Notes under the pieces: generated by a model
What the model saw: only the letters and a program-made list of their open reading frames with translations
Database searches by the model: none
What the model was told of the DNA's origin: nothing
Translations under genes and position numbers: made by a program
In this document: piece by piece, positions 2,729 through 32,727 of the stretch
How positions within the stretch are numbered: position 1 is the stretch's first letter
How the letters are laid out: every line of letters starts with the position of its first letter
Origin: Methanococci archaeon
GTDB lineage: Archaea > AGJL01 > Methanococci > Methanococcales > Methanocaldococcaceae
DNA length: 48,479 nucleotides
Direction: 5' to 3'
Assembly: GCA_013153845.1 (NCBI GenBank)
Contig: JAADDS010000005.1
Coordinates: forward strand, 1-48,479

Positions 2729-5700
2729 TTATCCTTTAATAACTCCTAACGGCTTCATCCTTGCAACTTTTAATGATATTCCTGCTTTGTGGCAGGTATC
2801 TGCAACTAAATCAACACTCTTATATGCTTCGGGAGCTTCTTCTGCCATAACTGCTTTTGAATCACTCATTGCTATAATTCCCATTTCTGCCAATCTTTTC
2901 TGTATCTCTTTACCTTTCCATAATTTTAATGCCTTAGCCCTACTTAACTTTCTTCCTGCTCCATGAGCAGTTGAACCAAACGTCTCTTTCATAGCTATCT
3001 CTGTCCCTCTCATTAAATAGGAAGCGGTTCCCATATCTCCTGGAATGATAACTGGTTGTCCAATATCTTTATATTCTTTTGGTATTTGTGGATGTTTTGG
3101 TGGAAATGCCCTTGTAGCTCCCTTTCTATGGACTATAACCTTTACCTTTCTTCCATCTACCATATGTTCCTCTTTCTTAGCTATGTTATGGGCTACATCA
3201 TAGACAATACTCATCTCTAAATCTTCGGCATGTATTTTAAACACTTCCTCAAAGCTCTCTCTAACCCAGTGTGTAATCATCTGTCTATTTGCCCATGCGT
3301 AGTTTGCTCCGCAACACATTGCTTTAAAGTAACTCTGCCCCTCCTCTGATTCAAATGGAGCACACGCCAACTGTCTATCTGGCAATTTTATTCCGTAGTT
3401 TTTAGCTGCTTTCTCCATAATTCTTAAATAGTCGGTGCAGATTTGATGTCCTAAACCTCTTGAACCGGTATGTACTAAAACAACAACTTGATTCTCTTCA
3501 ATGCCATAAATCTCTGCTGCTTCCTCATCAAACACTTTTTCAACATACTGAACCTCTAAGAAGTGGTTTCCACTTCCCAAGCTACCAAGTTGAACTCTTC
3601 CTCTCTCTTTTGCTTTATCTGAAACATAGGAAGCGTCTGCATCCTCCATACATCCATTTTCTTCAATAAACTCCAAGTCCTCCTTCCATCCATAGCCCTC
3701 TTTAACAGCCCATCTAACTCCTTCCTCTAACACATCATCCATAACACTTTTGCTGAACTTTACAATTCCCTTACTTCCCAAACCAGAAGGGACATTTTTA
3801 AATAGTGTTTTTATAAGCTCTTTTATCTTTGGTTGGACTTCTTCTTTTGTTAAATTTGTTCTTATGAGCCGAACTCCACAGTTATGGACAACTATGTTAT
3901 TTGCTATGAAGTTGTGTTCTTTGCTTACTATTCCAACATCATACAATTTTGAATCATAAGGAATTTCTTCAATCTCCTTTATTTTGTCTATTACAAAGCC
4001 ACCTCTAACTCCATATTTTTTAATAAACTCTTCTAATGTTTCAAAATTATTTGCAAAAGTTTTATTTTGTTCTACTTTTGAAATCCCTTCTTTGTTTATA
4101 TTTTCCCATGTAATTAATTTCCTCCTTAGATATTCTGTAATTAATAAAATTTTCTCATCATTACAATATGCATACCCAATTTTAGAGAGATAATTATAAA
4201 GTTCTTTATTGTTTGGACTTATATACAACCTATACATAACCTTTCCATCATACTCTCTAACTTTGTAGATGTTTGCATTTATATCAAATTCTTTTAACAT
4301 TTCTACTAATTCATTTAAATAGTTTATAAGTTCATTTTCAATATCCTTTGTCTTTGAGATTGTTAAAGATATTGAGCTTATGGTATATTTGTGGTTTTTA
4401 GTCATTGATATTGGCTTACTTCCATCTGCTCCAAACAATCCTGCTAAGAAATTTGCTTTTACCCATTTTGGAGATTTCTTTATCCACTCAGGAACTTTTG
4501 GAATTTGACATATTTTTTTACCAATTGGCATTCCCAATTTATGCATGAACAGTGCAAACGCTTTGGAAGCTATTTTTATAAAGTTGTCTTCGCATAAACT
4601 TGTGTATTCATCTCCCCATGCATTTTTTATTTTAACTTCTCTCTTCCTTGAATATATTTTTGAAGATTTTATTCCTAATTTTTCCAAATCTTCTCTAATT
4701 TTAATAAGTGTCTCTTTTTTTCCATAAAATGCTACATACAACCTCTTTCTATCTCCATTTTCTTTAACTATACTTCCATCTCCATAAGCAAATCCTAACA
4801 ACCTTGCAATAATCCCAATATTTTTGTTGTTCATTTTTAGTGGCAATAAATTCCTTTCTTTTAAGTATCTTACTATTTGTACATCATACTCTGCAAAATC
4901 ATTCTCATCCAATATCATCTCATCTGATGGCTCTTCATACTCAACTCCTTCATAAGGATAAACTATAATTTCATCTCCTTCTTTTAGCATACCCATTGGA
5001 ACATAGCCATTTAATGTTAAAACTGGGTGGTCTTTACTTCCTTCTAAAATCCTTCCTGACTCTGTTTTTATCCTTATTATTCTCTCATTTGCATCTCTTT
5101 CAGAGACAAATAATATAGTTGAGTTCTTTTCTCCTTCATCTGGATTATAAATCTTAACATGCAAATCCAATTTTTCTTTTAGTTTTTCTAATTTTATGTA
5201 ATATCTATCGTCTGTTAATATTTTTGAGTTTGACGTGAGACATGATATATCAAATCCCACTCCTCCAGGACATATAACTCCTTCTCTTTGGTCAAAAGCC
5301 GCTACTCCTCCGATACAGTTTGAAACTAAAAAGCTATCTGCTATAAAGTTATGGTCTTTGTGATTTATTGTGAAATCATAAACTTCATCTATATCAACTT
5401 CCTCTATACTTTCAATCTCATCCCAAACTAATCCATCCCCAACCTTTCTTTCTTCAATAAAATCTTCATAGCTCGGGAAGTTTGAAGGAACCCTTATCTC
5501 TTTAATCTCTTTTCCATTCTTTAACTTATACCAAATATCTTTAACAAATCTTTCATCTTCCTTGTTTATATTTAGCAATCTTATAATCTCTGATGGTTTT
5601 TTACCTTCTTCAAACAATTCTTTAACTTTTTCAGCAAGTGCTTTTCTTCTATTTATCTCTTTTTCCCTATACTTTAAAAATGCCACTGCGTAGCATCCAA

Positions 5701-7012
5701 ATTCCTGCCTCTCTCTGTTGTATTCATAACCAATCTTTGCCCATAAGTTTATTAAGTTCTTGGACGTGCCAATTATTGTTAAAACATATTTAACTGTCTC
5801 TGCCCCATCATTTCTTTTGTGAGTTGAGTTTCTTTTTGTAATTGTTGTCTCCACACCAAACTCATTTAATAATTTAACAATATTTTCTAAGAATTTTAAT
5901 GCATCCTCTTTAATCTTTATATCTTTAGCCATCTCTAATGTTGGGAATGTGAATAATGCCTTTCTATCTTTTCTTGGATATGGCTTTCTTAATTCAGCTC
6001 CAAAGAATGATGCTAAGAACAACCTCTTCTGCCACAATTTGCAGTTGAATATCCACTCTGGGAAGTTGTATTTCTTTAACGTCTTGTTTCCAATTGGAAC
6101 GCCCAATGCATATAACAAAACAACTAAACTTGATGCATTTACATAAAATCTATAACATCCCTTTTTATCACCATAGATCCTTGATGGAGTATAGCCAATC
6201 TTTTTAATATCTTCTCTAATTCCTTCTAAATCTTCTAAGTGTTTTGATGAGAAGTGTATAATGCCATCTCCTCTTTTCCCAATAAAGTTCATTGAGCCAT
6301 CTCCAAAGACAAATCCCATAATTTTTAACAAGTAAGGAAGTTTTTTATGGTTGTAGGTTAATGGAATTAAATTTCTCTCTTTTAGTTTTCTTAAGATGAT
6401 TTCTTTACTCTTCTTGGTTAGGTTTAGTTTTCTCATGCATTCAATTATATCATTTTCATTTATAATAACATCATTTGGTGGTTCTTCATATTCAACTCCT
6501 TCATAAGGATAGATAGCAACCCTATCATTTACTTTTAAGTTTTTAAGCTCAACCATTCCGTTTGGTGTATAAAATGGGTGGTCTTCTGTTGCTATCGTCT
6601 CATATCCAAGCTTTGTTCTAACTCTATAGATTTTGCAGTATGGTTTTAATTTAAAGAACTTTTTAACTTCACTTGCTTCTATTTTTTTATCTTCTGTATT
6701 GAATACATTAACTTTTTCATCTTTTAGGCTCTCATAATCTTTTATTCTATAGTAGAATCCATGCTCAGTTAAAACCTTTGCATCTGGGTGGAGACAAAAG
6801 CCATAACCGTAATGTACATCAGGCATGGCTATAGAATACTTGTAAATCCCCGGCAGGCATGCAACATTCGCTATCTGCTCTAAAACCTCTGATTCTAACT
6901 CATCTAATAGGATTTCGTTTAAGTATATCCTCCCCGGAACTCTCATACAATCTTTGTAATCTTTTGGAAGTTCCCATACAACTTCAGAGACCCTTTTTAA
7001 AATATCTTTCAT
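2729..7012 (-). CDS. rtcB: RNA-splicing ligase RtcB containing two inteins
   Basis: RtcB joins 2',3'-cyclic phosphate and 5'-OH RNA ends, using GTP and Mn2+, in archaeal tRNA splicing and RNA repair. The 1427-residue precursor is three extein pieces (residues 1-72, 566-590 and 1045-1427; 480 residues in all, a normal RtcB length) interrupted by inteins at 73-565 and 591-1044. In spliced numbering the active-site residues are visible: Asp95 and Cys98 of GFDISC, the His of SGNHFLE, of [12 protein letters not shown] and of [12 protein letters not shown], and the guanylylated His in [12 protein letters not shown]. The ATG has AGGTGATACT upstream. A TATA-like GTTTATATG about 45 bases upstream suggests its own promoter. 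The ligase should be inactive until both inteins leave, because Cys98 is itself a splice-junction residue. Confidence 0.97.
3881..5242 (-). mobile_element. RtcB intein at the Cys98 site, with intact-looking LAGLIDADG endonuclease
   Basis: This intein occupies residues 591-1044 of the precursor (454 residues). Block A starts [10 protein letters not shown], block B is GSKDHPVLT, and the end is [14 protein letters not shown] followed by the extein Cys, so the standard His-Asn dipeptide is present. Two dodecapeptide motifs, [10 protein letters not shown] and [11 protein letters not shown], both keep their acidic residue, so the homing endonuclease may be active. The insertion point falls at the Mn2+-binding Cys98 of RtcB. 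From memory this is the same point as the single M. jannaschii RtcB intein. Confidence 0.95.
5318..6796 (-). mobile_element. Second RtcB intein, at the Cys73 site, with altered splice and endonuclease motifs
   Basis: This intein occupies residues 73-565 of the precursor (493 residues). Block A is [10 protein letters not shown], block B is ATEDHPFYT, and the C-terminal block ends [13 protein letters not shown] followed by the extein Cys. The penultimate residue is Ser rather than the usual His. The first endonuclease motif, [10 protein letters not shown], is canonical, but the second reads [11 protein letters not shown], with Glu in place of the catalytic Asp and no closing Gly. The endonuclease may therefore be weakened. 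It shares the stretch [11 protein letters not shown] with the other RtcB intein, so the two are related. Confidence 0.95.
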
Positions 7013-30488: not shown

Positions 30489-31262
30489 TTATTCCTCGTT
30501 CTCTTTTTTCTGCTCTTCGTTCTCATCTGTTTTCTGTTTCAATTTGCTTTTAACTTCTTCAATGAGTTTTTTAACTTCTTCTGGATCTACCCTCTTAAAT
30601 TGAGCATCTTTTACTGTAATTACACAAACATCAACATTCTCAGGGTTTATATCTTCATTTGCTTTTGCTAATGACTTTATAGCCAATTCTAAACCTTTAT
30701 CTAATGATATGTCATCGTGATACTCTTTTTCAAGTAGCTCCATCACAACTGGTCTTCCGCTACCTATTGCAGTTGCCCTATACTCTATAAGAGCACCACT
30801 TGGATCTGTCTCGAATAATCTCGCTTCGTTTCGATCGATTCCTGCAATTAGCAGGGAGACACCAAAAGGTCTTACTCCTCCATGTTGTGTATATGCCTGT
30901 TTAATATCACAGATCTTTTTTGCTAACATCTCAATTGATATTTCCTCTCCATAAGTTAATCTGTAAATTTGTGCCTCTAATCTTGCCCTATCTATTAAAA
31001 CTCTCGCATCAGCTACTAATCCAGATGTAGCAGCAGCAACATGCTCATCTATTTGAAATATCTTTTCAATTGACCTGATCTTTACTAATTTGCTTGTTAT
31101 TCTTCTATCAACTGCTAAAACAACTCCATCTTTACATGTGATCCCTACGGCTGTTGTTCCTCTTCTCACTGCTTCCCTTGCATATTCCACTTGATATAAT
31201 CTTCCTTCTGGACTGAATACTGTAATTGCCCTATCATAAGCACTTGGAGGGACTACTTGCAT
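30489..31262 (-). CDS. psmA: Proteasome alpha subunit
   Basis: Forms the outer gated rings of the 20S proteasome. 257 residues with the N-terminal gate [27 protein letters not shown], the [16 protein letters not shown] strand and the [13 protein letters not shown] motif. The C-terminus is a long charged tail ([16 protein letters not shown]). The start has GTGGTGATAAAGT. A 210-base gap separates it from SBDS. Confidence 0.97.
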
Positions 31263-31694: not shown

Positions 31695-31982
31695 ATGAAG
31701 AGGGTTAATATATCAGAAGAGGCAAAGAGGTTTATTCTCGAGAAATTAAAAAAAGCAGGTAGGAATGAAGTTGTTATATACTTTGAAGGATTTGCATGAG
31801 GAGGTCCAAAGTTTGGAATTGCAATTGCCCACCCCAGTGAAAAAGATAAATTAATCTATGATGGAGAATTTAAACTCTATATCGACCCTATTGCAGATCA
31901 GTGGCTTGATGAAGTCGATATATCATTAAAAAGATCAATATTTGGGAAGTATGTAAAGATAAGAGGGAGTAGTAGTTGCTAA
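31695..31982 (+). CDS. HesB/IscA-like selenoprotein, with in-frame UGA read as selenocysteine
   Basis: The 95-codon frame contains TGA at codon 35 (31797-31799) and continues in frame to TAA. Around the UGA the protein reads IYFEGFA-U-GGPKFGIAIAHP, matching the first conserved Cys region of HesB/IscA iron-sulfur carriers with Sec in place of Cys. It ends RGSSSC, where family members carry the last Cys. HesB-like selenoproteins are known from methanococci. The GGTGATAAAA binding site and a good TATA box show it is expressed. It would accept or carry Fe-S clusters or a related redox function; the exact role is unknown. Confidence 0.88.
31797..31799 (+). other. UGA recoded as selenocysteine
   Basis: Codon 35 of the HesB-like gene. 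Strong protein similarity resumes directly after it and the frame stays open for another 60 codons. No obvious archaeal SECIS (a stem with a GAA/A internal loop) is visible in the 25 bases before the convergent gene or in the short leader. Confidence 0.85.
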
Positions 31983-32007
31983 AAAGTAAAAAATCTATAA
32001 CAAATAT

Positions 32008-32715
32008 TTATAACAAATATTCCAATATCTCTTTTGGGTGTTTTAGCACTACGACATCTTCTAATTCCATCAACCTTTTTGTATTTTCTGCATCTACTTT
32101 TCTAACTCTCATTTTAATTTCTTTTCCTTCAATTATGGCTCCATTTGGACATGCTCTTTTACACTCTCCACAACCCAGACATTTAGACAAAACTATCTCA
32201 GGAAACTTGCCCCTTAAAATTATTGCACCGTTTGGACATGCTTCAACGCATTTTAAACAACAAATACACTTTTTTTTATCAATAGAATAGGGAAGTTTGG
32301 TAATAACAACTCCTGCCTCGTAATCCACAGGAACAATTAAAGATCTAACAAACCCCTTCCCTGCCTGGGCTATTGCATTAGTTATTAGCGTATCTGCTAT
32401 CCCTCTAACAACTTTTGCAACAGTATTTCCAGTAGTTGGAGAACTTATTAAATAATCGTATTTTCCTAAGCTTAAACGGCCAGTTATTGGTGAAGAATAG
32501 GGATGTTCTCTTTCTAAAACTATTTCTTCGTAATAACCTCCTCCTGAAATATAATTTAACTCTCCAAATAAACCATACATTTTAATAACTTCCTCTCCTG
32601 CCTTAGAAATTAAAGTAGTAATTTTTACATCCTTCTCTTCCTTTAACTCTCTCATAATTTGGAAACTCTCCCTCAATAAATGACCAGCCCCAGTAATACA
32701 CCAAACTATCCTCAT
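32008..32715 (-). CDS. Archaeoflavoprotein with two [4Fe-4S] ferredoxin motifs (MJ0208 family)
   Basis: The protein is about 235 residues. The N-terminal two thirds is a flavin-binding fold (IVWCITGAGHLLRESFQIM, ISSPTTGNTVAKVVRGIADTLITNAIAQAGKG). The C-terminal third has two CxxCxxCxxxCP clusters: CICCLKCVEACPNGAI and CLGCGECKRACPNGAI. It probably passes electrons from ferredoxin to a flavin; relatives include dihydromethanopterin reductase-like proteins. AAAGGAGATGAAT favours the ATG at 32715 over the one at 32721. Phosphopantothenate synthetase precedes it. Confidence 0.82.
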   Translation of the reverse strand: MRIVWCITGAGHLLRESFQIMRELKEEKDVKITTLISKAGEEVIKMYGLFGELNYISGGGYYEEIVLEREHPYSSPITGRLSLGKYDYLISSPTTGNTVAKVVRGIADTLITNAIAQAGKGFVRSLIVPVDYEAGVVITKLPYSIDKKKCICCLKCVEACPNGAIILRGKFPEIVLSKCLGCGECKRACPNGAIIEGKEIKMRVRKVDAENTKRLMELEDVVVLKHPKEILEYLL

Positions 32716-32727
32716 ATTCATCTCCTT

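Follow-up and report, generated by a model that had tools for sequence, protein, structure and literature searches.

How is an in-frame UGA codon read when the gene that carries it lacks the SECIS hairpin found at its relatives? The question is raised by a hesB-like gene in the window (the whole 48,479-nucleotide stretch of DNA analysed here, from the genome that we denote G000). A preliminary description had proposed that this gene forms one frame with a TGA at codon 35 and a normal stop after it, and translation together with comparison to homologues confirms this: the frame reads MKRVNISEEAKRFILEKLKKAGRNEVVIYFEGFA*GGPKFGIAIAHPSEKDKLIYDGEFKLYIDPIADQWLDEVDISLKRSIFGKYVKIRGSSSC*, with a single internal TGA followed by 60 conserved codons and a closing TAA at 31980-31982 (Table 1). 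Archaeal Sec insertion is thought to be SECIS-dependent, and the factor that binds the SECIS is still unknown (PMC2933860, PMC9622424). The same description had assumed that Sec is inserted here in the ordinary way; the usual route finds no support at this locus, where the SECIS of 30 of 33 relatives is absent.

Table 1. Features at and around the hesB-like gene, in window coordinates.
Feature	Position	Strand	Remarks
psmA, proteasome alpha subunit, divergent upstream neighbour	30489..31262	-	TIGR03633, 372.2 bits; synteny with relatives
Promoter-proximal palindrome GTTGTGTTTAGTATTGCCACAACCATAA	31624..31651	+	Just upstream of the hesB TATA-like box
hesB-like selenoprotein gene	31695..31982	+	95 codons and TAA; translation, profile, fold
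In-frame TGA, codon 35	31797..31799	+	At the position of IscA Cys35
Frame past the UGA, residues 36-95	31800..31979	+	Apparent purifying selection; ends in the conserved C-terminal Cys
SECIS site of relatives, hairpin missing	31978..32080	+	AT-rich here, TAAAAAGTAAAAAATCTATAACAAATATTT, versus TAACCGGGAACCCAATTTTGGGACCGGTTAGC in G004/G001
dmrX/MJ0208-type dihydromethanopterin reductase, convergent neighbour	32008..32721	-	TIGR02700, 384.7 bits; ends about 26 nt from the stop of hesB

The hesB-like gene and its product

Homologues of the gene are found in 33 of the 36 genomes of the order, each with a single TGA, including exactly one internal TGA in all 14 genomes of the genus (Methanocaldococcus); none of the 33 has a Cys codon at this position. 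Because the TGA recurs in every homologue, it is not a chance feature of the window. Nor does it reflect a generally raised use of UGA, as TGA ends 8 of the 44 main open reading frames of the window and is thus an ordinary stop here. Reinitiation of translation past the UGA was also considered and rejected, since no in-frame ATG, GTG or TTG follows soon after it. A second hesB copy bearing a SECIS was sought in G000 and in its sister genome, G013, and neither has one.

The product matches the HesB-like selenoprotein profile TIGR01911 over residues 1-89 with 112.8 bits (cut-off 66.35), and the UGA lies in the UxGP motif (FA-U-GGP, codons 33-38); the match to the Pfam family Fe-S_biosyn (PF01521) is weak, at 17 bits against a gathering cut-off of 26.3. 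Structure prediction from 20 aligned relatives returned an A-type carrier fold with a mean pLDDT of 93.6, the best PDB matches of which are IscA 1x0g and SufA 2d2a (Foldseek E 1.1e-5, probability 1.00; TM 0.71-0.74 by query length), with 1r94 likewise among the matches at probability 1.00. In a family profile alignment to 1s98/1r94, codon 35 aligns with Cys35 of E. coli IscA. The earlier proposals that the TGA occupies the first conserved Cys of HesB/IscA proteins and that the product belongs to the HesB-like selenoproteins are therefore borne out by the profile alignment, the TIGR01911 score and the fold match. The further statement that proteins of this type are rare holds only in part: almost every Methanococcales genome searched encodes one (33 of 36), and the type has already been catalogued. 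The M. maripaludis member has been listed (PMC2933860) and identified through mutagenesis and 75Se labelling (PMC11097638), and the family has been tabulated with TIGR01911 and the UxGP motif (PMC13188914).

Compared with the known Methanococcales HesB-like selenoprotein (TIGR01911; M. maripaludis MMJJ_08070), the window gene is alike in sequence family, UxGP motif, position of the UGA codon, C-terminal Cys, A-type carrier fold and, as in most Methanocaldococcus, psmA upstream, but it differs in having no SECIS at the stop codon and a replaced downstream neighbour. With the IscA/SufA/ErpA A-type Fe-S carriers (PF01521) it shares the predicted fold and the position of the first ligand; unlike them, it has a Sec codon for the first Cys and one C-terminal Cys instead of CGC. 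The three-ligand Cys set of IscA (C35, C99, C101, with its CGC end) is thus not present; the window gene has just Sec codon 35 and one C-terminal Cys, Cys95, which is invariant across the 20-row alignment. In the draft genome G009 (L013), the last hesB residue is Tyr (GSGEY) where the others have Cys. We regard the window gene as a probable orthologue of the Methanococcales HesB-like selenoprotein, encoding an A-type (IscA/SufA-fold) carrier with a predicted Fe-S or metal role; this assessment is made jointly with that of the whole explanation given below.

Absence of the SECIS and its date

An archaeal SECIS of the GAA/A kink-turn type is found at the stop codon or within about 20 nt of it in 30 of the 33 hesB genes. 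Among the 14 members of the genus, 11 have a hairpin that begins at the hesB stop codon itself (e.g. TAACCGGGAACCCAATTTTGGGACCGGTTAGC in G004/G001): a stem of 7 bp leads to GAA facing A, then to a C-G stem of 3 bp that ends in a short loop. In the alignment of these elements three pairs have changed on both sides, and every pair is maintained in every sequence. In all 19 homologues outside the genus the element lies 0-20 nt past the stop, the AAA/A form of G017 included. The three exceptions are G000, G013 and G007. Comparison with relatives leaves no trace of the element in G000 or G013. In G007 (L006) the apex is deleted at the hesB stop, leaving the remnant TAACTGGAAAGTTAGC, in which GGAA caps a short stem, and both the UGA and the frame are kept. 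The missing element lies at and after the stop codon, just outside the interval 31695-31982 to which the preliminary description was confined.

Measured against the archaeal SECIS as described (a GAA/A kink-turn hairpin; PMC9622424, PMC11881835), the element is thus present at 30 of 33 relatives and absent at the window gene, which also departs from the canonical archaeal selenoprotein gene with a GAA/A SECIS in its 3' or 5' untranslated region. A parallel in a different gene is M. voltae fdhA, which appears to be without its 5'-UTR SECIS (PMC11881835) and is likewise a selenoprotein-family gene missing an expected element. The loss at hesB goes unmentioned in the main text of the papers searched. 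The gene family is old and catalogued; what is new is that the window gene and its G013 counterpart have no SECIS.

The surroundings of the gene help to date the loss. Of the 14 genus genomes, 11 have psmA upstream of hesB. On the downstream side, gene F5 is found in nine of these psmA-sharing relatives, whereas G000 and G013 have a dmrX/MJ0208-type gene that ends about 26-33 nt away from the hesB stop. The 3' flanks of the two genes align through into this shared neighbour, and a tree places G000 and G013 as sisters with support 1.0 and G007 elsewhere, beside G004. Because the new downstream gene is common to G000 and G013, the SECIS loss would predate their split. The dmrX-type neighbour is, as far as synteny tells, the mark of the rearrangement by which this lineage lost the SECIS side. 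Most simply, the element would have been lost once by rearrangement, ahead of the G000/G013 split, and independently in G007 through an internal deletion. Elsewhere in the window, positions 2729-7012 on the minus strand encode a 1427-residue intein-containing RtcB-family protein (NF038162, 2112.6 bits in three stretches) that also matches the intein N-terminal splicing region.

Searches for a signal elsewhere used a covariance model, R2, built on 15 elements taken from several selenoprotein genes, as a model from the hesB SECIS alone (R1) is too narrow. R2 recovers 2-7 SECIS per genome, each with at least 24.8 bits, but nothing near hesB in G000, G013 or G007; its matches in the latter two are far from hesB. 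Run without filters across the 48-kb window, L004 and L006 (G007), it gives a top score of only 10.6 bits. A relaxed scan tolerated any first base in the NAA motif, either A or G facing it, and apical stems of 2-4 bp. On the strand of hesB its scores stayed at null level, and it returned no SECIS in the 48-kb window or near hesB in G013 and G007. As a positive control, the same scan picks up the weak SECIS tctgcCAAcctGTAAaggAgcagg 5' of fdhA in G013 (L104, 1396, +), a CAA/A variant. Such a variant has been reported for M. vulcanius fdhA1 (PMC11881835), and the likeness suggests that G013 may be M. vulcanius. Rfam at permissive E-values gave no SECIS family match near hesB, and folding of hesB with its flanks gave no fold with a notable z-score.

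Several candidate signals were set aside. For a bacterial-type signal or stable fold past the UGA, z-scores are near zero or positive. A GAA/A-like arrangement enclosing the UGA at 31782-31811 has a score of 13, no better than the null level (random 2.36-kb sequence gives a median of 13.5); its 5' arm would sit within the ribosome during decoding of the UGA, and relatives that include G004 and G007 have T in place of the opposing A. The conserved YID...VDI coding accounts for a 9-bp inverted repeat, TATATCGAC...GTCGATATA (31878-31922), which yields a score on the minus strand alone.

Selection past the UGA, promoter and Sec machinery

The stretch past the UGA differs between G000 and G013 at 7 of 180 bases, and all seven differences are synonymous; ahead of the UGA there are six synonymous and three nonsynonymous changes. 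If the stretch past the UGA were untranslated, seven silent changes out of seven would have P of about 1e-5 to 9e-5, varying with transition bias. Divergence is 3.9% past the UGA versus 22.9%, with many gaps, in the upstream intergenic DNA. This estimate, which comprises seven substitutions between two genomes, supports purifying selection on the downstream frame and hence its use past the UGA. On the G007 branch most changes past the UGA are silent; the two replacements, V74I and S77T, are conservative.

The promoter region is likewise conserved. The last 100 nt ahead of the hesB ATG diverge by 5% from G013, and the palindrome GTTGTGTTTAGTATTGCCACAACCATAA occurs once per genome in seven of the 14 Methanocaldococcus genomes, each time upstream of hesB, where it looks like a gene-specific operator. 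This conservation indicates that hesB keeps its own promoter. Its 5' leader is probably very short, because no more than some 30-45 nt separate the TATA-like box from the ATG.

The Sec machinery is intact in both genomes as regards the three components searched for: G000 and G013 each encode tRNA-Sec, SepSecS and selenophosphate synthetase (SPS), the last with its own in-frame TGA and a strong SECIS. The fwuB-, vhuU- and vhuD-type genes and fdhA of G013 all retain a SECIS, as does the vhuD-type gene of G000 (names in the vhu/fwu cluster follow our reading of the sequences). Of those examined in these two genomes, hesB is the sole selenoprotein gene without a SECIS.

How the UGA may be decoded

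The SECIS is gone and yet selection appears to act past the UGA, so the codon would have to be read by some non-standard route, and production of a full-length protein seems to proceed with no recognisable SECIS. Residue 35 probably has to be Sec and not Cys, because none of the 33 genomes has swapped the UGA for a Cys codon, though one base change would be enough; we infer that residue 35 is Sec. The explanation that we favour, and consider fairly probable as a whole, is that in the ancestor of G000 and G013 a rearrangement right past the hesB stop exchanged the gene downstream and eliminated the SECIS, as the comparison with relatives indicates; that cells would still make and need the full-length protein, to judge from the selection on the downstream frame; and that the UGA is most likely still decoded as Sec by way of tRNA-Sec and SelB. 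A low yield of protein may suffice for a small carrier. Within this explanation, basal, low-rate insertion of Sec with no SECIS at all is a tentative proposal, somewhat likelier than insertion through a signal unlike the known archaeal SECIS. UGA reporters without a SECIS in M. maripaludis gave 20-65 mU/mg versus about 350 with one, an output above background and below 1% of that of the UGA-free gene (PMC9622424). The residue inserted at such low readthrough could be an amino acid other than Sec. Counting against the favoured explanation, changes to the GAA/A motif abolished or strongly cut Sec insertion (PMC9622424, PMC11881835), so that a severe effect would be expected where the entire hairpin is lost.

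The likelier of the competing ideas, though on balance we doubt it, is that efficient Sec insertion is driven by a non-canonical or relocated SECIS, in the coding region, in the 3' region, far along the transcript or in trans. This is also the second branch of the favoured explanation, and its weight is counted there. The seeming indispensability of Sec, with no Cys form in 33 genomes, speaks for it, as do the 5'-UTR SECIS of fdhA, which shows that the element can lie there, and unknown trans factors, which have been named as a possibility (both PMC11881835). The searches speak against it: R2 without filters matched nothing in 48 kb, the relaxed scan did not rise above null level on the strand of hesB, no z-score from folding stood out, and the genome-wide matches in G013 and G007 are far from hesB; a 5' location would also have to fit a leader that is probably very short. 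With only two sequences compared, a conserved signal of a form that we do not recognise is possible.

Two further readings are each improbable. Low-level suppression of the UGA by a standard amino acid, for example through a near-cognate tRNA, would leave the protein as a minor, Sec-free form; basal SECIS-independent suppression does occur in M. maripaludis (PMC9622424), but a sense codon one base away would lift the yield greatly, and yet G000, G013 and G007 all keep the UGA. Alternatively, the UGA might simply be a stop, with the conserved frame behind it a remnant awaiting erosion. The gene has lost its SECIS in two separate lineages, the M. maripaludis homologue mutant is viable and fixes nitrogen (PMC11097638), and a pseudo-SECIS is described for M. 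voltae, according to a reference listed in PMC2933860. A relic of this kind, however, fits the substitution pattern poorly, as all seven changes past the UGA since the shared loss are synonymous, there are no indels, divergence is far below that of the intergenic DNA, and the promoter is retained; decay may apply to G007, whose loss carries no date. An assembly or sequencing error as the cause of the missing SECIS is very improbable: G000 is indeed fragmented (74 contigs, 86.87% completeness), but G013, 99% complete in three contigs, has the same arrangement and no SECIS.

These genes are a natural case in which the SECIS was lost in two lineages and the UGA kept, in one of them together with selection past the UGA. 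Genes such as the window hesB are missed by SECIS-based searches, and they offer a direct test of how strict the need for the SECIS is and of whether there are other signals. It is conceivable, and to us a little short of an even chance, that Methanocaldococcus has inserted Sec at a specific UGA without a canonical mRNA SECIS ever since G000 and G013 diverged, through either basal decoding by SelB and tRNA-Sec or a new kind of signal.
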